NCBI GenBank assembly: GCA_003161435.1
Contig: PMOS01000031.1
Span: 62,001 to 126,000, forward strand
DNA length: 64,000 bases
DNA from: Vulcanimicrobiota bacterium
Lineage (GTDB): Bacteria; Vulcanimicrobiota; Vulcanimicrobiia; Vulcanimicrobiales; Vulcanimicrobiaceae
Direction: 5' to 3'
Positions 328 to 30,218 of this stretch are shown here, one piece after another. The notes beneath the pieces are model-generated. The model made no database searches. It saw nothing but the letters and a program-made list of their open reading frames with translations, and had not been told where the DNA came from. The first letter of the stretch is position 1. Each line of letters begins with the position of its first letter. Made by a program: the position numbers and the translations under genes.

Positions 328-1395
328 GTGACGACGCAGCGGTCCCGGCGCTCGAGCGTCCGAGCGGTTTTCGAAACGGTCGTCCAGGAGCACGCCGTCA
401 CGGCGACGCTGCACGACGAGCTTTGGGCCGTGCTGTGGAACCGGCGGTACGAGGACGTCGACGAACCGGTGTGGAGCGTCGATAGTGCTTACAGTGGTAC
501 GCTGGTGTTCGCGCGTGAGCTCGACGCGCTCACGTGGCTGATCGGCCTCGACACGCGCGAAACGTTTCTCGTTCTTCGCGTCACGGGTTCGGCGCCGCCG
601 ATCGGCAGCCGCGTGCGGCTGCTCCCTGCGATTGCGGAGCGCTGGCGCTTCGCCGACGTTCGGCGGCTCGGCCTCGGGATCGAGCTGCGTTTCGAGGACC
701 CGACGCCGATCCCCGACTTGATCTGGGTCGCGATACTGCGCTCGGGCGTACGGCGGCTCGCAGCCTTGATCGACGCACGCCGCGTGCAGCTCGTCTCGCG
801 GCGCGCGCAACTGGGCGTGGTCACCGAGTCGCCGACGGTCGATCAGGTGTGGCGGGAGAAGATCGCCGCGATCGGCGAGCGCGTCGCGTTCGCGACCGAT
901 TACACGCCCCAGGAGCATCGTTCCCTCGCGCATGCTCGCTCGAAAGGCGCGCGGACCGGCGATGAAGAGGAGCATCGAATCGTCATGGCCCGTCGACTCC
1001 GCTACAGCGAACGCCGCGATGCAGAGGTGGCACACTTTCGCTCCGGCGAGTGGCAGGCAATCCACGATCAGGTCGCGGCGGCGCGCAGCAGGTATGAAGA
1101 ATATCGCGACGAGGCGATCGGCCTCGAGGACGCGCTGCAGCGCCTGCGCTCGCTGGCCGAACGTGCGGCGCGCGCGATGATTCTGCTCGACGACCTCGAG
1201 CAGGTCGAGTTCCCGGTTCGCGCGTTGTCGTTCGACGAGGAGCGCTTGGAAGAGCCCGCCTACGCGCAGGAGTTGCTGCGCAGCGTCGAGCTGCTCCACG
1301 CCGCGGTCCCGCCGCGCTCAGCGTCCGGGGCAGCCCACTTCAGCGCGTATCGTGCGCGGACTGCCGGCCCGTCCGTCATCCCGCCTCGCTATTAG
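328..1395 (+). CDS. hypothetical protein with helical, probably coiled-coil C-terminal half
   Basis: I do not recognise a family. A 355-residue product with a GTG start is proposed; there is no convincing ribosome site, so the start could be further in. Residues about 55-130 alternate short beta-like strands (for example TLVFARELDALTWLIGLD). Residues about 200-310 are rich in Arg/Glu/Ala and probably form long helices (AAARSRYEEYRDEAIGLEDA). There is no signal peptide or membrane segment, so it is probably cytoplasmic. The antisense frame over the same DNA has the Arg/Asp-rich composition of a shadow frame. The gene runs into a convergent neighbour, overlapping its 3' end by 20 bp. Confidence 0.6.
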   Translation: MTTQRSRRSSVRAVFETVVQEHAVTATLHDELWAVLWNRRYEDVDEPVWSVDSAYSGTLVFARELDALTWLIGLDTRETFLVLRVTGSAPPIGSRVRLLPAIAERWRFADVRRLGLGIELRFEDPTPIPDLIWVAILRSGVRRLAALIDARRVQLVSRRAQLGVVTESPTVDQVWREKIAAIGERVAFATDYTPQEHRSLAHARSKGARTGDEEEHRIVMARRLRYSERRDAEVAHFRSGEWQAIHDQVAAARSRYEEYRDEAIGLEDALQRLRSLAERAARAMILLDDLEQVEFPVRALSFDEERLEEPAYAQELLRSVELLHAAVPPRSASGAAHFSAYRARTAGPSVIPPRY

Positions 1396-1891
1396 TCTCC
1401 ACTCGCATGTCGCCCTTCGACAGGCTCAGGGTGACAGCTGATGCCGCTTTTGGAACTCGGGATTCGGCTTCGGCTTTGAGGGCGGCGAGCATCATCTCGG
1501 AGTTCTCGCGAACTTTTTTCTGGAGGGTCGGTCCGATCAGCTCGGCGAGGGTCGGGACACCGAAATCGTACTCGACCGAGAGCACGACGCGCGTCATCTC
1601 GCCCACTCGCTCGAATGTCCAAGCGCCCTCGAACGTGTCGAGATCGCCTTCGATCAGCGCGTAGTCGATCCGCAGCCGCTCGTCGTCGAAGCGGTCGTTC
1701 TCGGTCCACTCGATCGGCGCGTCTTCGACCAGCGTCTTCCAGCGCGTGACGACGTGGTCGGCGTGGCGTTCGAGCACGACGACGGTCTCGACGTCGGGCA
1801 TGAACTCCGGGAAGCGGTCTTGCTCCTTGGCAAGCTCGTACACCGTCGCGGCCGGCGCCGCAACGTCGATCGAGCACTCGACATACGGCAT
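1376..1891 (-). CDS. SRPBCC/START-like (polyketide cyclase/Coq10-type) protein
   Basis: A 171-residue product. The start MPYVECSIDVAAPAATVYEL followed by a DxxRFPEFMPDVE segment is the usual opening of the SRPBCC fold (coenzyme Q-binding Coq10/RatA type and polyketide cyclase 2 families), which binds hydrophobic ligands in a helix-grip cavity. The end of the domain, ENSEMMLAALKAEAE, matches the final long helix. The last ~20 residues (VTLSLSKGD...) are encoded by a copy of the dispersed repeat described below. They look like a read-through tail rather than part of the fold, and this tail makes the gene overlap its convergent neighbour by 20 bp. Start codon ATG lies 1 bp beyond the stop of the upstream aminotransferase gene, so the two are probably co-transcribed. 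The ligand is unknown. Confidence 0.8.
   Translation of the reverse strand: MPYVECSIDVAAPAATVYELAKEQDRFPEFMPDVETVVVLERHADHVVTRWKTLVEDAPIEWTENDRFDDERLRIDYALIEGDLDTFEGAWTFERVGEMTRVVLSVEYDFGVPTLAELIGPTLQKKVRENSEMMLAALKAEAESRVPKAASAVTLSLSKGDMRVETNSEAG
1413..1436. repeat. dispersed repeat copy 1 (CTTCGACAAGCTCAGGGTGA family)
   Basis: Reads CCCTTCGACAGGCTCAGGG followed by TGACA on the plus strand. It lies inside the 3' end of the SRPBCC gene, where its complement encodes VTLSLSKGD. Related copies are found at 4175, 11563, 11619, 17901, 19876, 19906 and 30230. Confidence 0.75.
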
Positions 1892-1892
1892 T

Positions 1893-3185
1893 TTAGGCGA
1901 GGACGCCCAACTGGTCGAACGCGGCGGCGACGGCCTCGTCGAAGGCGCGCAGCGCGAGGTCGATCTCGGCGGCCGTGACCACGAGCGGCGGTTCGAGCCG
2001 AATCACGCGCTGCTGGTTGAGCGTCCACGCGGCGGTGACACCGCGTTTGAGCAGCTCGGGGATGATCGTCCCGCCATAGCCCTCACTGCGCAGCTCGACG
2101 CCGACCAGCAGCCCCGCGCCGCGCGCATCGGCGATGACGGCCGGCCGGCGCGCCATCGTCGCGCGCACGCCGTCGAGCAGCTGCGCGCCGCGCTGGGCGG
2201 CGTTCGCGACGAGATCCTCGTCGATCAGCACGTCGAGCGCGGCGAGCGCGGCGGCGCACGCCAACTCGTTGCCGCCGAAGGTCGACGTGTGAAGCAACGG
2301 CGCTTTGCCGTATGCTGCGTTCCAGACCGCCGGCCGAGCGACGTACGCGCCGACCGGGATCACGCCGCCCGACAGCCCCTTCGCCAACGTCATCACGTCG
2401 GGGACGACGCCGTCGCGGTCGCAGCCGAACATGACGCCGCAGCGCCCCAGTCCGGTCTGCACCTCATCGGCGATCATGACCGCGCCGGCCGCATCGCAGA
2501 TCGCACGCACGTCGCGCAGATACCCGTCGGGCGGGACGTTGACGCCGCCCTCGCCCTGGATCGGTTCGACGATCACCGCCGCGACCGCAGCGTCGACGAC
2601 CTCGCGCAGCGCGCTCGCGTCGCCGAACGGAACGTGGCGAACGTCGGCGAGCAACGGCATGAACGGATCGCGGAACGCGTCGCGCCCGCTCGCCGAGAGC
2701 GCGCCCAGCGTCTTGCCGTGAAACGCGCCGTGCGTCGCGACGATCGCCGGGCGTTTCGTCGCGGCACGGGCCAGCTTGAGCGCCCCTTCGACCGCCTCGG
2801 TTCCGGTGTTGGCGAAGAACGAGATCGTCAGATCGCCCGGCGTCAGCGCGGCAAGCCGTTGCGCCAGCCGTCCCATCAGCGGGTTGAACATCGTGCGGCC
2901 CGACAGCGCGATGCGGTCGAGCTGATCTTTGACCGCCGCGACGACGCGCGGATGGCGGTGCCCGAGCGTGAAGACGCCGTAGCCGCCGGCGAAATCGAGG
3001 TACGTCTTGCCGTTGTGGTCGGTGATCGTCGACCCCGCGGCGCGCACCTCGACCGGCGAGCCCGACATCTTCATCACCCGCGCGAGCGGCGGGTTGAGGT
3101 AGCGGCGGTAGTTCTCGTAGGTTTCGTCGTACAACGCGGCCGCGGACGCCGCCCCGTAGAGGTCTTCGTCGGCCCCCGTCCTCAC
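1893..3185 (-). CDS. class III PLP-dependent aminotransferase (acetylornithine/putrescine/4-aminobutyrate type)
   Basis: 430 residues, the usual length for the class III (ornithine/4-aminobutyrate) aminotransferases, cytoplasmic and PLP-dependent. Visible marks: a glycine-rich GGYGVFTLGHRHP entry, FFANTGTEAVEGALKLAR for phosphate binding, the acidic cofactor motif IADEVQTGLGR, and the PLP lysine in MTLAKGLSGG. The wording is nearest to acetylornithine, putrescine or ornithine aminotransferases; the exact substrate cannot be decided. I chose the GTG at 3185 because it overlaps the stop of the upstream dus gene by 4 bp (GTGA) and gives the expected N-terminus. The frame stays open further upstream only because it runs antisense-free through the dus gene. 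Likely transcribed with dus and the SRPBCC gene. Confidence 0.9.
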   Translation of the reverse strand: MRTGADEDLYGAASAAALYDETYENYRRYLNPPLARVMKMSGSPVEVRAAGSTITDHNGKTYLDFAGGYGVFTLGHRHPRVVAAVKDQLDRIALSGRTMFNPLMGRLAQRLAALTPGDLTISFFANTGTEAVEGALKLARAATKRPAIVATHGAFHGKTLGALSASGRDAFRDPFMPLLADVRHVPFGDASALREVVDAAVAAVIVEPIQGEGGVNVPPDGYLRDVRAICDAAGAVMIADEVQTGLGRCGVMFGCDRDGVVPDVMTLAKGLSGGVIPVGAYVARPAVWNAAYGKAPLLHTSTFGGNELACAAALAALDVLIDEDLVANAAQRGAQLLDGVRATMARRPAVIADARGAGLLVGVELRSEGYGGTIIPELLKRGVTAAWTLNQQRVIRLEPPLVVTAAEIDLALRAFDEAVAAAFDQLGVLA

Positions 3186-4240
3186 GCGACGGCGAGCTCG
3201 CGCGTGTGCGCTTCCAACTGGTCGATCGTTTCGGCGAGGACCGCTAGCGTCTCGGCCGCGGTTTCGGTGCGCATCAGGCGCTCGCGCAGCGCGCTCGCAC
3301 CGGCGAAACCCTTGAGATAGTAGCCCAAATGCTTGCGCATCTGTGGGACCGCCCGCGGTTCGCCCCACTCCTCGACCATCGTGCGATAATGGTGCATCGC
3401 GAAGCGCAGACGCTCCGGCGCCGGTGGGGTCGCCTCGGGTTCGCGACCTTCCATCAGCGCGTGCAAGCGCGAGACGAGCCACGGATTGCCCAGCGTCGCG
3501 CGACCGAGCATCAACGCGTCCACGCCGCTCTCGCGCATGCGCTGGAGCGCTTCGTACGGGTCGCCCAGGTCGCCGTTGCCGATGACCGGAATGTCGACCG
3601 CGCGCTTGAGCTCGGCGATCTTCGACCAGTCGGCGTTGCCCTTGTAGAACTGTTTGGCGGTGCGCGCGTGGAGTGTGAGCGCCTGGACGCCGACGGCCTG
3701 TGCGCGCTTGGCGACCTCGACGAAGACGAGCTCGTTTTCGTTCCAGCCCAGTCGCATCTTCATCGTGACCGGACAGTCGACGGCATCGACGACGGCTTTC
3801 ATGATCGCCTCGCAGCGGTCGACGTCCCGCAGGCACGCGCTGCCGCCTTCGGTCTTGGTGACCTTCGGCGCCGGGCAACCGAAGTTGATGTCGACGATGT
3901 CGGCGCCGCATTCGCGCACGACCTTGGCGGCCATTGCCATGATCGCCGGGTCGTTGCCCCACAGCTGGGTGGAAACCGGTCGCTCGACGCCGTGCTGGTC
4001 GATCATCTCCATCGTCCGCCGGGCGCCGTACTGCAGCGCGTTCGAGGAGACGAACTCCGTCACGGTGAGCCCGAACCCGAACGGCTTGTAGAGCGCGCGC
4101 ATGGTGCGGTTGGTAACCCCCGACATCGGCGCGAGCACGATGGGGGGCCAAACCTCGACGGAACCGATGCGCAACCCTTCGACACGCTCAGGGCGGGCTC
4201 CGACGAGGAATGGTTCGCTCACGACGAAGGAGTGTACCAT
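3182..4240 (-). CDS. dusB: tRNA-dihydrouridine synthase, DusB-like
   Basis: FMN enzyme that reduces uridine to dihydrouridine in the D-loop of tRNA using NADPH. The 352-residue frame shows the family marks in order: PPIVLAPMSGVTNR (FMN phosphate/TIM barrel start), STQLWGNDP, DINFGCPAPKVTKTEGGSA with the catalytic cysteine, MKMRLGW, TLHARTAKQFYKGNADW, PVIGNGDLGDPYEAL and MLGRATLGNPWL. The start is uncertain. The ATG at 4240 has no good ribosome site, and the first 22 residues are partly encoded by a repeat copy (4175-4193). Family members usually begin near LRIGSVEV, which corresponds to a TTG at 4174. The start region overlaps that of the divergent hydrolase gene. First gene of a dus-aminotransferase-SRPBCC run. 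Confidence 0.93.
   Translation of the reverse strand: MVHSFVVSEPFLVGARPERVEGLRIGSVEVWPPIVLAPMSGVTNRTMRALYKPFGFGLTVTEFVSSNALQYGARRTMEMIDQHGVERPVSTQLWGNDPAIMAMAAKVVRECGADIVDINFGCPAPKVTKTEGGSACLRDVDRCEAIMKAVVDAVDCPVTMKMRLGWNENELVFVEVAKRAQAVGVQALTLHARTAKQFYKGNADWSKIAELKRAVDIPVIGNGDLGDPYEALQRMRESGVDALMLGRATLGNPWLVSRLHALMEGREPEATPPAPERLRFAMHHYRTMVEEWGEPRAVPQMRKHLGYYLKGFAGASALRERLMRTETAAETLAVLAETIDQLEAHTRELAVA
4175..4193. repeat. dispersed repeat copy 2
   Basis: CCCTTCGACACGCTCAGGG, matching the repeat core with one change. It sits at the 5' edge of the dus gene; if translation starts at 4240 it encodes part of an N-terminal extension (PERVEG). Confidence 0.7.
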
Positions 4241-5189
4241 GATCGCCGCGCTGGTCCTAGCGACGCTCGTCGCGGCCGCCTCGCCTGAACCCCACCCGGG
4301 AGCCCCGATCGAGGTGGAAGTCCATCAGAACTCCCTCGTCGGCGAGTTCGCCCGGCCGCCCGATCCCGGCCGCCATGCGGCAATCATCGTGCTGGGCGGG
4401 TTCAACGGCGGCGTGCCGAGCGAGGACTTCGCGTTCGCGGAGCTCGGCTACTCGGCGCTGGCGCTCGCCTACTTCGGAGCCCCGCCGCTGCCTCGGGGAA
4501 TCGACCAGATCCCGGTTGAGACGGTGTCGCACGCGATCGACTGGCTGGCGGGAAATCCCGAGGTCGATCCGTCCCGCATCGGCGTGGTCGGGATCTCGGA
4601 CGGGGCCGCGCTCGCCCTGCTCGCCGCAGCCCTCGACCCGCGCATCAAAACGGTCGTCGTGATCTCGCCGACAGCGTACGTGTGGTTCGCACCGGTCTTC
4701 GACGGCGGTTACGACCGCTCGTCGTGGACGGCGCGGAACGTGCAACTCGCCTTCATCTCGCCGAACACGACCGCCGAAACCTCGCTGGCCAAGGCCGACC
4801 AAAGCGGCGGCACCTACGCCTTTCGCGATCTGTATGACGCTTCGCTCGCATCCGCGCCGGCGTCGACCGTGGCGAGCGCGACGATCCCCGTCGAACGGAT
4901 CGCCGGGCCGATCTTGTGCATCGCCGGCGACGACGACCGCAAGTGGGACAGCGCGGGCTCCTGCGCGGTGATCGCCGCGCGCCGCAAGGCAGCGCACCGC
5001 GACGGCCGCGATGAGGTCGTGATCGAGCACGGCGCCGGTCACGCGCTCTCGTTCGGCGGCCGGCCCACGCCCGTCACCATCCCGGCCGGTAAGATGCAAC
5101 TGCTGATGGGCGGCGCCCTCGACGCGAACGCTCGCGCCGCCTCCGACGAGTGGTCGCGCACGCTGTCGTTTCTCGCGCGAGCGCTATGA
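4239..5189 (+). CDS. secreted alpha/beta hydrolase (BAAT/acyl-CoA thioester hydrolase C-terminal-like)
   Basis: 316 residues. The N-terminus MIAALVLATLVAAASPEPHP is a short signal peptide, so the product is probably periplasmic or exported. An alpha/beta-hydrolase core follows: the nucleophile elbow GISDG (serine nucleophile), AGDDDRKWDS (likely acid position) and GAGHALSFGG (catalytic histidine). The pattern with ILVLGGFNGGVPSEDFA near the start resembles the C-terminal domain of bile-acid-CoA:amino acid N-acyltransferase/acyl-CoA thioesterases and dienelactone-hydrolase-like enzymes. The start ATG at 4239 is well placed behind AAGGAG at 4226-4231. It shares bases with the ATG proposed for the divergent dus gene. 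Substrate unknown. Confidence 0.85.
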   Translation: MIAALVLATLVAAASPEPHPGAPIEVEVHQNSLVGEFARPPDPGRHAAIIVLGGFNGGVPSEDFAFAELGYSALALAYFGAPPLPRGIDQIPVETVSHAIDWLAGNPEVDPSRIGVVGISDGAALALLAAALDPRIKTVVVISPTAYVWFAPVFDGGYDRSSWTARNVQLAFISPNTTAETSLAKADQSGGTYAFRDLYDASLASAPASTVASATIPVERIAGPILCIAGDDDRKWDSAGSCAVIAARRKAAHRDGRDEVVIEHGAGHALSFGGRPTPVTIPAGKMQLLMGGALDANARAASDEWSRTLSFLARAL

Positions 5190-24963: not shown

Positions 24964-25908
24964 TCATCCGGAGGTCGTCAAGGGGACGCGTGTGCGTGCT
25001 TCCTCGTAGACGTCGCGCAACGCCGCCGCGAGAGAGATGCGCGGTGCCCAACCGGTCGCTGCGCGCAGCTTCGCGGCGTCGCCGACGCTGATTGGCACGT
25101 CTGCCGGGCGCATTCGCTCCGTATCCTCGCGCACCTCGACGGCGACGCGCGCGATCTCGATCAGCCGGCGCAGGATCTCGCGCATCGAGATCGCCGAACC
25201 GCTGCACACGTTGTAGATCTCGCCTGCCTGGCCCGCACCCTCGAGGATGCGCACGTAGGCGTCGCACACGTCGCGCACGTCGAGGACGTCGCGCGTCGCG
25301 GCGAGGTTGCCGACCCGGACCACGGGTTCGGCGCCGGCGGCGATGCGCGCGAGTTGAAGCGCGAACGCCGGCACCGCGAAGCGTTCGTCCTGACCGGTGC
25401 CGATGTGGTTGAAGGCCCGCGTGACGACGACGTCGATGGCGAACGAGTGCGCGAAGGCCGATGCGAGCGCTTCGGCCGCGACCTTACTGGCGGCGTATGG
25501 GTTGGCCGGCCGCGGCGCCGTCGTCTCACGCAACGGATACGCTTCGGGCGGCTGCGCGCCGTAGACGTCGGCGCTGCTCACCACCAGAACCCGTGCCCGC
25601 ACGCCGGCGTCTGCCAACAAGCGCGCGGCCTCGAGCACGTTCTGCGTGCCGCCGGCGTTGATCCGCAACGTCGCGGCAGGGTCCTCGATGGAGGCCGGAA
25701 CGAATGCTTGCGCGGCCAAGTGCGCGACGGCGTCAGGCCGAGCGAGCTCGAACGCGGCGCGCACCGCCAGCGGATCGGTGACGTCGACGCCGAGCACGTC
25801 GCCGTGGCCGGCGTGGTCGGTTTCGAGAACGTCGTGATCGCGTTCGCGCAGCGCCGCCCTAAGGTGACGTCCGACGAAGCCCGCCGAACCGGTGACAAGG
25901 ACGCGCAT
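24964..25908 (-). CDS. rmd: GDP-4-dehydro-6-deoxy-mannose reductase-like SDR
   Basis: 314 residues, extended SDR. Seen: LVTGSAGFVGRHLRAAL (NAD(P) binding), LAAQAFVPASIEDPAAT, VVSSADVYG, PYAASKVAAEAL (catalytic Tyr-x-x-x-Lys), TRAFNHIGTGQDERFAVPAF and DVLDVRDVCDAYV. These match Rmd/GDP-6-deoxy-talose synthase-type reductases, which reduce the product of GDP-mannose 4,6-dehydratase. It lies 17 bp downstream of that dehydratase gene, so GDP-D-rhamnose (or another GDP-6-deoxyhexose) is the likely product of the pair. Confidence 0.88.
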   Translation of the reverse strand: MRVLVTGSAGFVGRHLRAALRERDHDVLETDHAGHGDVLGVDVTDPLAVRAAFELARPDAVAHLAAQAFVPASIEDPAATLRINAGGTQNVLEAARLLADAGVRARVLVVSSADVYGAQPPEAYPLRETTAPRPANPYAASKVAAEALASAFAHSFAIDVVVTRAFNHIGTGQDERFAVPAFALQLARIAAGAEPVVRVGNLAATRDVLDVRDVCDAYVRILEGAGQAGEIYNVCSGSAISMREILRRLIEIARVAVEVREDTERMRPADVPISVGDAAKLRAATGWAPRISLAAALRDVYEEARTRVPLTTSG

Positions 25909-25925: not shown

Positions 25926-27950
25926 CTAGGTCGCGACCAGCGGCCGCAGGCGATCCATCTCGGCGGCGACCATGCGCTGCACGAGCTCCTCGAACGGCAC
26001 CTCGACCTCCCAGCCGAGAACGGCTTTCGCCTTCGCGGGATCGCCGACCAAGAGATCGACCTCCGCGGGACGGTAGAACCGCGGATCGACGACGGTGTAC
26101 GGCTCCCAATTCAAATCGACGGCGGCGAAGGCGAGCCGGACGAAGTCGCGCACCTCGTGCGTGCGTCCGCTCGCGACGACGAAATCTTCGGGACCTTGCT
26201 GCTGGAGCATCATCCACATCGCGCGCACGTAGTCGCCGGCGAATCCCCAGTCGCGCTTCGCGTCGAGATTCCCGAGGCGCAGCTCGCTCGCGAGGCCCAG
26301 CTTGATCCGCGCGACACCGTCGGTGATCTTCCGCGTCACGAACTCCTTACCGCGGCGCGGCGAGTTGTGAATCAGACATTCGCCGACGCCGGCGTGAAAC
26401 CGCCCCGTCGTCGTGGTGAAGTCGTAGAGCCAACCGTCGTAGTGCGGATCGGGAACGACGCGCTTTACCTCGGCCAGGTCGCGCTTGAGTTGCGCGCCCT
26501 TCGCTCCGGGGACATTCGGCGACCGCAGGTTGATCGAGTAGAACGGCCCGGGACGCTCCGGCGGTCCGACCTCGACGTTCAAGACCGTCTCCTGTCCGAG
26601 AGCGCGCTTCGCCATCCACCACAGACCCATTGCAAGGACGGCCGAGTTCGTCTTGAAGTTCTTATAGGCGTACGTGCCGCTCCCGGCCTTGAGCCCATCG
26701 GTCGCGTTGTAGCCTGCGAGGAACGCGCGCCAAACGGCGATTCCGGCGTTGAGCACCACCCGCGGAACGCGCTTGTAGCCGTCTTCTGTATAGCACTCGC
26801 TGCGCAGCCACTCGACGTACGTCGGGGCGCCGCTGAGCACGAGTGCTCCGATAACCTTCCCCGGAACGAAGCCCGAGGTCGTCGCCGAGTACCGAACGTC
26901 GCCGCACGTCACCTGCTTCCAAACCTCGGCAAATGCAGCACGCAATCTCGAATCGCTATTGGTGAACTTCGCGCTCGTCCGTGCTCCATCGTTGTGCGCC
27001 GAGCCGTCGCCAACGAACATCCCGAGCATCCACGCCGCGTCATTTGTCAGCGACGTGGACGAAGGAATCTCCGGAAGTTCGGCGCGCACCATTCGCTGTC
27101 CGGCGTCAATGGTCTTCGCAGCACGCTCGCCGTCAGCCATGAAGATCACATGGTCGCCGGTCGTCGTCACTGTCCCGCAGCGCGCTTCGATCCGCGCAAC
27201 GCTCTTGTTGTCGACCTTCGGCCGATGTCGGTACGCTGTACCACCGAGAACGGGCACGAAGTCGTCTCCGTCCCACACTTCCAAGCCGTGCAACGCGAAG
27301 CGCTGAATGTTCGCCCCTTTCTCTCGCACGCGCAAGATCTCACCGATCGGCTTGACATCGACGATGCAGTCTTCACGGACGATGACGGGCGTCGTGGCTG
27401 GAATCGATTCGTGGTTGAAAAGTATACCTGAGCAAGCGTAGATGTCGAACGACTCTCGGTAGTTGACGGTGATCCAGTGACCGTAGAGCTTCGCGACGCC
27501 GTACGGCGAGCGCGGATAGAACGGCGTCTCTTCGTTTTGCGGCACGGTTTGGACTTTGCCGAACATCTCGGAGCTCGACGCCTGATAGAACTTGATGTTG
27601 CGGTCGACCGCTCGAATCGCTTCGAGCACGCGCGTGACCCCGAGCGCGGTGAACTCCCCGGTGAGCACCGGCTGCTGCCACGACGTCGGGACGAACGACT
27701 GCGCAGCGAGGTTGTAGATCTCGTGCGGGCGCACGTCGGCGATGATCGTGCTCATCGAGCTCTGGTCGAGCAGGTCGCCCGAAACGATCTCGATCCGGTC
27801 GACCAGATGTTGGATGCGTTCGTGCACGTCGGTCGAGGTGCGGCGCGTCATGCCCACGACGCGATAGCCTTGCTCGAGCAGCAGCTCGGCGAGATACGAA
27901 CCGTCCTGTCCGGTGACGCCGGTGATCAGCGCGGTCTTTTGCGACACCAC
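25926..27950 (-). CDS. gmd: GDP-mannose 4,6-dehydratase precursor containing an in-frame intein
   Basis: 674 codons, of which 348 are an intein; the spliced enzyme would be 326 residues, a normal Gmd length. Gmd converts GDP-mannose to GDP-4-dehydro-6-deoxy-mannose with bound NADP. N-extein (1-181): ITGVTGQDGSYLAELLL, NLAAQSFVPTSW, FYQASSSEMFG (Ser/Glu catalytic), YPRSPYGVAK (Tyr150, Lys154). C-extein (530-674): SPRRGKEFVTRKI, GNLDAKRDWGFAGDYVRAMW, YRPAEVDLLVGD. The break falls inside the invariant NHES-PRRG loop, so the enzyme should be inactive until spliced. GTG start behind AAAGGCG, 7 bp after the PilZ gene; rmd follows. Confidence 0.95.
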   Translation of the reverse strand: MVSQKTALITGVTGQDGSYLAELLLEQGYRVVGMTRRTSTDVHERIQHLVDRIEIVSGDLLDQSSMSTIIADVRPHEIYNLAAQSFVPTSWQQPVLTGEFTALGVTRVLEAIRAVDRNIKFYQASSSEMFGKVQTVPQNEETPFYPRSPYGVAKLYGHWITVNYRESFDIYACSGILFNHESIPATTPVIVREDCIVDVKPIGEILRVREKGANIQRFALHGLEVWDGDDFVPVLGGTAYRHRPKVDNKSVARIEARCGTVTTTGDHVIFMADGERAAKTIDAGQRMVRAELPEIPSSTSLTNDAAWMLGMFVGDGSAHNDGARTSAKFTNSDSRLRAAFAEVWKQVTCGDVRYSATTSGFVPGKVIGALVLSGAPTYVEWLRSECYTEDGYKRVPRVVLNAGIAVWRAFLAGYNATDGLKAGSGTYAYKNFKTNSAVLAMGLWWMAKRALGQETVLNVEVGPPERPGPFYSINLRSPNVPGAKGAQLKRDLAEVKRVVPDPHYDGWLYDFTTTTGRFHAGVGECLIHNSPRRGKEFVTRKITDGVARIKLGLASELRLGNLDAKRDWGFAGDYVRAMWMMLQQQGPEDFVVASGRTHEVRDFVRLAFAAVDLNWEPYTVVDPRFYRPAEVDLLVGDPAKAKAVLGWEVEVPFEELVQRMVAAEMDRLRPLVAT
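26364..27407 (-). mobile_element. full-length intein with LAGLIDADG homing endonuclease, inserted in gmd
   Basis: Codons 182-529 of gmd (348 residues). Splicing residues are complete: Ser182 (intein position 1), block B TTTGDHVIF with Thr264 and His267, block F WLYDFTTTTGRFHAGVGE, penultimate His528, terminal Asn529, and Ser530 as the +1 nucleophile. Two LAGLIDADG motifs lie in the middle: MLGMFVGDGS (308-317) and FLAGYNATDG (410-419), so the homing endonuclease may still be active. Removing it rejoins NHE to SPRRG exactly. Base composition looks slightly less GC-rich by eye than the flanks. Confidence 0.95.
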
Positions 27951-27957
27951 ACGCCTT

Positions 27958-28629
27958 TCAATTCAGGATCTGAACGTTCTTGCCGCTCTCGTCGAAAACG
28001 AACCGCGTCTCGTACAGCTCGTCGGTTTCCGGACCGACGACCTTCGATTGGATGACCAGGCGGTGCATCAGCTTGTCGTTGTGCCGCACGATACCGGAGT
28101 AGAAGTATTGGACCAGCGGGGTGACGCGCTCGCCGAGCGGGGCGAGGCGGCGGCGTTCGACGAGCAGTTGCAACAGCCGGCTCTGCAACTCCCCGGGCAA
28201 GAGCCGCGCCGTATCGTCGGGCGTCATGCGCACGGTCGCGAGCTCTTCCTGCGCCTTGTTGGATTCAGCGACGGGGCGGTCGGTGGTGTAGCGCATGATC
28301 GCATCCCAGTCGTCGGCCGGGATCCCGGTGAAGCGCGTGCCGTAGCGCCAGACCTTGCGGCCCTGGTGCTGCACGTTGTCGTGCCAGACCGTCTTGACGC
28401 GCACGTGGAGCTGCCGCTCGTCGAGCTGCACGCGAACCTCGAACTCCTCGCGCGCGACCGGTTCTTGGGTGATGATGCACAGGCCGCCGCCGCCGATATC
28501 CAAACCGATCGCTGCCCGGCTCGTGTGCCCGTCGAAGCTATAGGTCGCACGAAACGGCTTGCGCTTCCGCGGAAACTTGCGCCGGTTCTGTTCCTTGCCG
28601 GTGAACCAGGCCAGCAGTTCGGGCAGCAT
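27958..28629 (-). CDS. PilZ-domain protein (probable c-di-GMP binding)
   Basis: 223 residues. The PilZ c-di-GMP motif is present: RRKFPRKRKPFRATY (RxxxR region) and GLDIGGGGLCI (the D/N-x-S-x-x-G region, here DIGGGG). The domain spans about 15-120 and ends WRYGTRFTGI. Residues 120-223 form a helical extension of unknown role (LLPGELQSRLLQLLVERRR). There is no membrane segment. Its position directly before gmd-rmd suggests that sugar-nucleotide supply and c-di-GMP signalling are coupled; that is inference. Confidence 0.85.
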   Translation of the reverse strand: MLPELLAWFTGKEQNRRKFPRKRKPFRATYSFDGHTSRAAIGLDIGGGGLCIITQEPVAREEFEVRVQLDERQLHVRVKTVWHDNVQHQGRKVWRYGTRFTGIPADDWDAIMRYTTDRPVAESNKAQEELATVRMTPDDTARLLPGELQSRLLQLLVERRRLAPLGERVTPLVQYFYSGIVRHNDKLMHRLVIQSKVVGPETDELYETRFVFDESGKNVQILN

Positions 28630-28685: not shown

Positions 28686-30218
28686 CTACCAAGTGAGCCG
28701 GGCGATGGCGTCCCACTGGGCCGGTCCGGTGCCGGTCAGATCGTAGAACGCGACGCCGATCGCTCCGGCTTCGCGCGCGGCGGTCGAGGCCGACGTCACC
28801 TCGTCGCCCGGCGGCGCTCCGCGCTTGGAGAGGACGCCGGTTTGCGCCCCGACGTCGATCGGGACGTCCCGTCCGGCGAGCCGGCGGACGAGCGTCACCG
28901 AACCGGTGACCGCGGCGCGCGCCTTCTCCGGCGTGTCCCACGGACCCATCATTCGCCAATACGTCATCGGCTGGAGCACGTCGGCGTCGCGAGCGATCTC
29001 GCGGTACGGGAACTTCGCTTCGTCCAGCCGCTCGAGGTACGGATCTTCGATCGTCGCGATCAGCAACACGTGCGGACCGACCGCTTCGCGCAACAGGCCC
29101 AGATATGCGCTCAGCGCGGCGTAGCCGCGCGGCCCGTCCCCGAGAAACTCATCGCCGCGTTCGAGATCGACGGCGAGTCCGCTGATGCGGCTGCCGCGCG
29201 GCGTGCGATAGGCGGCGACCGCCGCGTTCTCAGCGAGGTCGTCGAACGCGTTCGCGCGCGGCACCGTCCAACCGATCACCGCGATCCCGTGCTCGGTCAA
29301 GCCGTCGATGAGCCGATCGATCGTCGCCTTCGCCGACGGCGTGCTCTCGTCGAACGCGCCGTAGGCGAGGCGCAGCTCGATGGAACGGAGTCCCGCGCGC
29401 AGTGCCGTCGCAACGATCCGATCGACGTCGAGCTTCGCGAACGATGCGTCGTCGAGCGGATCGGCCGAGAACGCGAGCCAGGCCGATTTCCCGCGAACCG
29501 TGCCGACGTTCGTGAGCGGAAGCTCGCCGGGGACCACGGCATCCACCGCGGTTCGGGCCTGCGGGGCTTCGACGACATAGTGCGCGACGGTGCCGGGCCG
29601 AACCGTCGCGTCGTCCCACGACGAAGACGGCGATGGGATCGTCGCGGCGAGCTGTCTGCGATCCGCGCCGTCGACGCGATAGACGCGCACCGAACCGTCG
29701 GTCACGCGCGGAAACCAGCCGATGCGCACCGCGTGCGGGCCGAGCGCGCCGGCGACCGCGTGTGGCAGCGACCACGCACGCGGGTCGAAGCTCGCGCGCT
29801 GCGTGCCGAGCCCCGCCGGCCGATTCGCGACGACGCGCAACGCGACGGGCCCCGCTTCACGCACGGACACGATCGCCGCCGGCCCGTCGTAGCGCAGCCG
29901 CGTTTGCCACTGTGCCTCGCCGCGATCCGTGAAGTAGTCGAAGTCGGCGCCGCGCCGCAGTTTCACCACGGCGCCCGCGCCGTCGCGCAGCACGACGCGG
30001 ACGAGCGCGCGCGCCTCGCCGTCGGGGCTGACGCCGAGCGATTCGACCGTCACGGCGAACGACGTCGCAGGCGCGTTCCGCCAGAGCACGGTCGGCTGCG
30101 GCGCCGGCGCGGTCGTCGCCATCGGCGTCGGCCACGCGAACGGCGCGGGGGTTTCGGCGACCACCAGCAGCACCGGCAGCGCCGACAGCGCGAGCACGAT
30201 ACGCATGATTTTTGTCAT
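28686..30218 (-). CDS. secreted protein with TIM-barrel-like C-terminal domain, function unknown
   Basis: 510 residues. Signal peptide MRIVLALSALPVLLVVAETP (start ATG 30218, or the internal ATG 30206), a Pro/Ala/Thr-rich linker, a beta-rich middle (about 50-230) that resembles fibronectin-like modules, and a C-terminal half with alternating helices and strands: DRLIDGLTEHGIAVIGWTVP, SGLAVDLERGDEFLGDG, DADVLQPMTYWRMMGP, GVAFYDLTG. This is the pattern of a glycoside-hydrolase-like barrel (GH10/DUF4015-like), but no catalytic pair can be named with confidence. It sits between the receptor gene and the PilZ-gmd operon, all leftward. Confidence 0.75.
   Translation of the reverse strand: MTKIMRIVLALSALPVLLVVAETPAPFAWPTPMATTAPAPQPTVLWRNAPATSFAVTVESLGVSPDGEARALVRVVLRDGAGAVVKLRRGADFDYFTDRGEAQWQTRLRYDGPAAIVSVREAGPVALRVVANRPAGLGTQRASFDPRAWSLPHAVAGALGPHAVRIGWFPRVTDGSVRVYRVDGADRRQLAATIPSPSSSWDDATVRPGTVAHYVVEAPQARTAVDAVVPGELPLTNVGTVRGKSAWLAFSADPLDDASFAKLDVDRIVATALRAGLRSIELRLAYGAFDESTPSAKATIDRLIDGLTEHGIAVIGWTVPRANAFDDLAENAAVAAYRTPRGSRISGLAVDLERGDEFLGDGPRGYAALSAYLGLLREAVGPHVLLIATIEDPYLERLDEAKFPYREIARDADVLQPMTYWRMMGPWDTPEKARAAVTGSVTLVRRLAGRDVPIDVGAQTGVLSKRGAPPGDEVTSASTAAREAGAIGVAFYDLTGTGPAQWDAIARLTW

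Follow-up and report, generated by a model that had tools for sequence, protein, structure and literature searches.

An intein at one site of GDP-mannose 4,6-dehydratase in Eremiobacterota, and how occupied and empty alleles differ beside it

Why does a gene for a sugar-nucleotide enzyme carry 348 extra codons inside a conserved loop, and how has such an insert persisted? The question is raised by gmd, the gene of GDP-mannose 4,6-dehydratase (Gmd), on the minus strand of a 64,000-nucleotide stretch (the window) of contig PMOS01000031.1 from a Vulcanimicrobiota bacterium. Inteins are mostly described in replication enzymes; those of UDP-glucose dehydrogenase and glucosamine-fructose-6-phosphate aminotransferase belong to sugar-nucleotide metabolism, in other enzymes and at other sites than gmd. 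Based on its sequence and its relatives, we regard the insert, with a probability of about 0.88, as a selfish mobile element of gmd: a class 1 intein carrying a LAGLIDADG homing endonuclease. One family of such inteins occupies a single site of this enzyme, outside the replication enzymes, in bacteria, archaea and viral contigs.

The open reading frame spans positions 25926–27950 (674 codons plus stop; all features below are on the minus strand). Pfam GDP_Man_Dehyd matches its product with 9.6e-128, split into two stretches, and the whole precursor passes the equivalog cut-off of the TIGR01472 gmd model (419.8 bits against 415), with either Gmd half falling below it when taken separately. The N-extein (residues 1–181, 27408–27950) ends in LFNHE and the C-extein (residues 530–674, 25929–26363) begins with SPRRG; the 348-residue insert between them comprises Ser182–Asn529 (26364–27407). 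The Gmd extein contains the short-chain dehydrogenase/reductase (SDR) motifs GVTGQDG, GMTRR, SSSE and YGVAK, following the motif list in the accessible part of PMC3584063. The same excerpt describes Arg190 of Burkholderia Gmd as required for orienting substrate and cofactor. Through an alignment to 1rpn with a constant offset of 7, this residue corresponds to the second Arg in SPRRG, four positions past the junction, a mapping that is counted from catalytic residues 131, 133, 155 and 159 and presumes no gap between.

The insert starts with Ser (Ser1, the N-terminal nucleophile, codon TCG, 27405–27407), contains the block B motif TGDH (T-x-x-H) at precursor residues 264–267 (27150–27161), ends in His347-Asn348 (block G, 26364–26369) and is followed by Ser at +1. 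Alignment and a predicted model place the N-terminal splicing region at approximately intein residues 1–110 (27078–27407) and the C-terminal one, ending IHN, at approximately residues 313–348 (26364–26471). The LAGLIDADG homing-endonuclease domain, approximately residues 120–305 (26493–27050) from Pfam, alignment, substitution rates and the model, contains the motifs LGMFVGDGSA (residues 128–137, 26997–27026) and FLAGYNATDG (residues 229–238, 26694–26723); its Pfam LAGLIDADG_3 match is 7.4e-5, at 23.4 bits against a cut-off of 22.5. A search of the PDB by sequence with the intein gave no match. The predicted fold, a HINT splicing domain and a two-motif endonuclease, extends across all 348 residues and is shared over that length with the archaeal LAGLIDADG inteins TliVMA (7qsu/7qss), 2cw7 and PI-PfuI (1dq3), which differ in host protein and site and are 13–22% identical to it in the VIA alignments.

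The same features recur among relatives. The first residue is Ser, Cys or Thr in all 32 inteins compared, and block B Thr83 and His86, as well as Asp134 and Asp237, the acidic residues of the two LAGLIDADG motifs, are conserved in every one of the 22 inteins aligned. Class 3 was ruled out by the N-terminal nucleophile Ser1. Bacterial intein-like domains are defined by lacking a +1 nucleophile, and this assignment was rejected on account of Ser+1 in 19/19 Eremiobacterota copies. At the corresponding loop, 40 Gmds were read that lack the intein, which identifies an in-frame insertion at a conserved site of otherwise uninterrupted homologues. The motifs, the relatives, these empty alleles and the fold prediction all support a class 1 intein, equipped with a LAGLIDADG endonuclease, located exactly at NHE/S (the slash marks a splice junction), as the original prediction had proposed from the key residues and the two endonuclease motifs. 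Its description of the interrupted loop as invariant needs correction, since 41 of 73 empty Eremiobacterota alleles have another residue in place of the Pro at +2 (SPRRG). Some relatives vary at the termini: the penultimate residue is Ala (AN) in L041 and L081 and Ser (SN) in L082 instead of His, and splicing may differ in these three. Thr is the first residue in the Gmd inteins L037–L040, L076 and L240. An extra stretch of ~35 residues near the end of the endonuclease (like SQREISRTGISRTFIRKIQNGGSA), resembling a helix-turn-helix by eye, is present in L037–L041, L076, L081, L082 and L240.

An extein-plus-intein match over nearly all 674 residues was found in 11 of 60 genomes, the window's own included; G005, one of these carriers, is a single 3.5-Mb contig. 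One further match, in G054, is truncated by a contig end. In this genome two contigs (L017, L042, L062) carry overlapping, slightly differing C-terminal parts of an occupied gmd, reflecting either a second copy or a mixture of strains. Scanning 149 genomes of the phylum with a profile built from 12 inteins gave matches in 19 (13 of the 85 better ones) and none in the other 130, some of which are incomplete or also lack a Gmd match (Gmd in 111/148). Named records assign the intein to Candidatus Eremiobacterota/WPS-2, with one of them, L034, deposited as Proteobacteria. The scan that yielded these records produced 17 loci: 11 from Eremiobacterota/WPS-2, 1 from Woesearchaeota, 4 from Omnitrophota and 1 from Paceibacterota. 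Both junctions are visible in 16 of them and always read NHE/X and HN/SPRRG (AN in L041), with only the second visible in L042. Looking for NHE/S insertions among Gmd homologues, as had been suggested along with an alignment to intein-free Gmds, has revealed relatives at the same site in other genomes.

Could the insert be dead, or an assembly error? The data are sequences alone and most of the genomes are metagenome-assembled, yet this explanation is hardly credible: the junctions are identical in independent assemblies, one of them a single contig, and Ser1, TxxH, HN and Ser+1 are retained in 12/12 first-found copies. In addition, the endonuclease is under purifying selection, with ratios of nonsynonymous to synonymous substitution (dN/dS) of 0.05–0.26 in 15 of 16 pairs and an undefined value in the remaining one. 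The endonuclease of the window intein is probably active. Two observations count against the mobile-element reading: dS exceeds 1 in 14 of 15 values, and 2 of 16 aligned Eremiobacterota inteins (L010 and L060) have endonuclease gaps of ~12–14 residues, possibly early decay.

In the mechanism that we envisage, gmd would be translated as one 674-residue precursor, from which Ser1, the block B Thr and His, the terminal His-Asn and Ser+1 would excise the 348-residue intein, joining NHE to SPRRG to yield a Gmd of 326 residues. Empty gmd alleles would presumably be cleaved by the endonuclease at NHE/S, with the intein then copied in. No second Gmd-level match was found in the window's genome (assembly 83% complete), which lends inferential support to the earlier suggestion that Gmd depends on splicing.

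How the intein came to its present distribution was addressed with a tree of 58 Eremiobacterota Gmds, site columns excluded. Presence of the intein carries no signal on this tree: it requires 16 changes, compared with 16.1 for shuffled labels (289 of 500 shuffles as low), and well-supported branches force at least 13 changes. The Eremiobacterota inteins themselves are monophyletic (support 97/97), and within the phylum the identity between inteins rises in parallel with that between Gmds (r 0.78). Given a single intein clade and parallel identities, the scatter within the phylum is probably largely loss of an old resident, plus some transfer; the intein would have been mostly inherited, frequently lost and occasionally regained there, and moved into distant Gmds between phyla. 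For an element reading that leans on movement, part of this evidence is unfavourable. The parallel identities imply that transfer within the phylum is rarer than the scatter alone implies, and the five approximately unbiased (AU) tests all used groups picked after the trees had been seen. Within the phylum, only the test of L030 was significant (p 0.012), the other two being non-significant (0.22 and 0.355).

Between phyla, both AU tests were significant (5e-7 and 9e-10). The inteins of L041, L081, L082 and L084 form one clade (100/100) that is rejected by the Gmd data (AU p 5e-7), implying that the intein moved without its gene. Base composition accords with intein transfer in L037 (49% G+C in the intein vs 66% in the gene), L078 (33 vs 46%) and L077 (32 vs 43%); the window copy is compositionally adapted (63 vs 64%). 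Scatter on the Gmd tree, AU tests and selection on the endonuclease together favour the mobile element, the first of two roles offered by the original prediction. The second, a conditional switch governing surface-glycan supply, could draw on the one Gmd-level match in the genome and on the position of the insertion in a conserved enzyme loop. It found no support and is very improbable, considering the 130 of 149 genomes without a match, the lack of signal on the Gmd tree, and the presence of Ser1 rather than Cys1 in 18/19 Eremiobacterota inteins, from which no obvious redox control would follow.

Genome samples of other groups were searched at a threshold of 1e-10. Matches were found in 5 of 384 Omnitrophota genomes (4 in Gmd, 1 in a paralogue), 9 of 371 genomes of the Woesearchaeota group (5 in Gmd, one cut short, and 4 in other host proteins) and 1 of 379 genomes of the Paceibacterota group. 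Viral contigs gave no match with the single intein or with alignment A2, and nine loci with the broader alignment A6: three IMG/VR contigs with the intein in Gmd, two with it in a Gmd-family paralogue and four others. A search of plasmids for the window intein found none. The paralogue, whose nearest PDB entry is the GDP-D-glycero-D-manno-heptose 4,6-dehydratase 7us5, carries related inteins at the homologous loop in L079 (Omnitrophota) and in L243 and L244 (IMG/VR); the L079 intein is 55–61% identical to the two viral ones. One viral contig, L242 (IMGVR_UViG_3300032237_000764, 1279–4623), has a Gmd that is interrupted by inteins twice, the second of which lies at the catalytic SSE motif (FYNAG/C...SGN/SSEEYG). 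In a phage collection, the only tblastn match to the window intein was an intein of the uncultured phage LR756508, alike over the whole length and with an HN/T junction, at 21% identity and in a PolB-like host frame named by eye. The 484-kb LR756508 (L018) contains another insert-like stretch a few kb away, in a clamp-loader-like frame, also judged by eye.

If the endonuclease does cut empty alleles, how do these persist beside occupied ones? The two groups differ immediately downstream of the insertion. The six bases after NHE (26358–26363, TCG CCG in the window) read TCN CCN in all 19 occupied Eremiobacterota alleles, with Ser codons TCG in 11, TCT in 4, TCC in 2 and TCA in 2. A first empty set came from the 48 of 60 genomes without intein; 40 Gmds were fetched and one (L129, outside the class) was dropped, leaving 39, and G002, G024, G035, G039, G055, G056, G058 and G059, with no, partial or distant Gmd, were left unfetched. 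In this set, Pro was kept in 16 alleles and TCNCC in 10, and Ser+1 was encoded by AGY in 14 of 38, against 0 of 19 occupied alleles (p 0.002). Among 321 columns, +2 comes first (p 6e-6; the runner-up has 0.0024), and phylogenetically independent pairs give 9.4 to 0 (median p 0.004). A second set of 36 alleles was fetched after the pattern had been seen and before its own letters were read; L278 and L280 were unreadable and L281 was read later, giving 33 and then 34. TCNCC is present in 8 of the 33 (p 3e-8), or 9/34 with the later-read allele. Pooled, 19 of 73 empty alleles have TCNCC compared with 19/19 occupied ones (p 1.5e-9), a contrast that ranks first of 319 adjacent codon pairs (next pair sharing no codon, p 0.002); AGY is used in 26/70 empty alleles of both sets, and independent pairs on a quick tree of the pooled sets give 8.3 to 0 (median p 0.008).

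We slightly favour the explanation that the TCNCC bases just 3′ of the site are part of the endonuclease target and that empty alleles persist mainly where these bases have been recoded. In G129, a bin with an occupied Gmd (intein locus coordinates equal to those of L030), the empty Gmd (L249) reads AGC AGC, as one would predict for an allele exposed to an endonuclease, although the bin is metagenomic and also contains a third, partial copy. Occupied/empty pairs chosen by eye from the tree, in which the +1,+2 codons were ranked, had a mixed outcome: 1st of 321 in L012/L128, 1st of 320 in L014/L122, 2nd of 321 in L008/L094, 6th of 215 in L017/L126, 7th of 320 in L013/L126, 22nd of 322 in L028/L116, 74th in L007/L096, 101st in L016/L124 and 214th in L030/L091. 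These codons were unchanged in two occupied/occupied pairs. Several observations count against target recoding. About a quarter of the empty alleles (the 19 of 73) retain TCNCC; Pro is also absent at +2 in 16 of 80 viral Gmds (the best 80 of 584); occupied alleles elsewhere have AGY at +1 (L036, L077, L078, L241 and L242); and in the two Omnitrophota genomes where occupied and empty Gmds coexist, the copies without intein read TCT CCG (L063) and AGC CCG (L064). A strong claim of escape from loss of Pro alone was weakened by the viral Gmds and by the solved Gmd 5uzh, which has Ile at this position. Simple deletion scars are not favoured as the origin of recoded sites, because the residues at +2 of empty alleles (E, S, A, Q, D, K, T, G) have only Ala in common with those at the second position of the Eremiobacterota inteins (I, L, V, A, C).

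The contrast could also be a founder or co-conversion effect, in which the allele that first received the intein had TCN-CCN and homing copied this flank into each new host, leaving empty alleles to drift with no target resistance involved. The single clade of Eremiobacterota inteins and the non-Pro viral Gmds fit this account, as does the co-conversion of a flanking residue described for the MCM-d intein of Haloferacales (available text of PMC10643990). We consider it unlikely, for the third position of the Ser codon varies among occupied flanks, occupied and empty alleles show no difference in AGY use in the 12 remaining conserved Ser columns (p ≥ 0.10), and TCNCC is rarer in the first empty Eremiobacterota set (10/39) than among the 30 best-scoring Omnitrophota Gmds (23/30, p 3e-5) or the viral Gmds (40/80, p 0.017). 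Somewhat more doubtful still is that splicing requires Pro at +2, so that only alleles with Pro retain the intein and DNA recognition is not the cause. Pro occurs at +2 in all 34 Gmd-borne inteins with a readable C-extein (19 from Eremiobacterota, 12 from other phyla and 3 viral), and flanking residues affect splicing of the MCM-d intein in the same excerpt; a requirement for Pro leaves the synonymous Ser+1 difference unexplained, and the paralogue-borne inteins L243, L244 and L079 have Gly at +2.

MCM-d resembles gmd in that the codon after the site differs between occupied and empty alleles, and the accessible passages of PMC10643990 state that Pro at its +1 is thought to block splicing with the site still recognised. 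In gmd, by contrast, Ser+1 is mostly kept, with synonymous recoding, and +2 is changed, which points to DNA recognition. Escape from homing endonucleases through changes in their target is modelled in PMC3229294. At even odds, gmd has been a long-running battleground, where empty alleles across the phylum were recoded, partly by synonymous Ser changes, at bases that the endonuclease needs. This would be a natural form of gene-drive resistance, and the same intein family would be moving among bacterial, archaeal and viral gmd genes, having also invaded the homologous loop of a paralogous sugar dehydratase. As close occupied/empty pairs differ by few landing-site bases, host escape by recoding of a conserved target can be reduced to a simple cleavage question, and such recoding bears on the durability of gene drives.

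The original prediction knew of no described Gmd intein, a claim that we dropped: a type II intein is reported in gmd of Thermosynechococcus in the accessible text of PMC9403480. Like the window's, it has an endonuclease domain, lies in the GDP-D-mannose dehydratase gene and is lineage-specific; it differs in its cyanobacterial host, and the likeness is one of description, as the accessible text names no insertion site or sequence. The host gene is therefore not new, and the more interesting parts are the way inteins occupy a single site across bacteria, archaea and viral contigs, and the recoding of the landing site. Among the matches listed in the open full-text literature, with subscription journals and intein databases outside this scope, there was no description of the Eremiobacterota intein or of a recoded site.

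The gene following gmd (24964–25908, start codon picked by eye) begins 17 bases past the gmd stop and encodes an SDR resembling GDP-6-deoxy-D-mannose reductase (PDB 6x3b, 2.1e-60). Given this neighbour, the pathway probably leads from GDP-mannose to GDP-D-rhamnose. Upstream of gmd, beyond a PilZ-domain gene (27961–28629), lies a 510-codon frame (28689–30218, minus strand) without a Pfam match at 1e-5. Further LAGLIDADG matches occur in the same genome on contigs 44, 39 and 30 (L001–L005), with hosts named by eye that include one DnaB-like and one SNF2-like helicase frame, and a ribonucleotide reductase-like frame of 2332 codons, likewise named by eye, probably contains two inteins.
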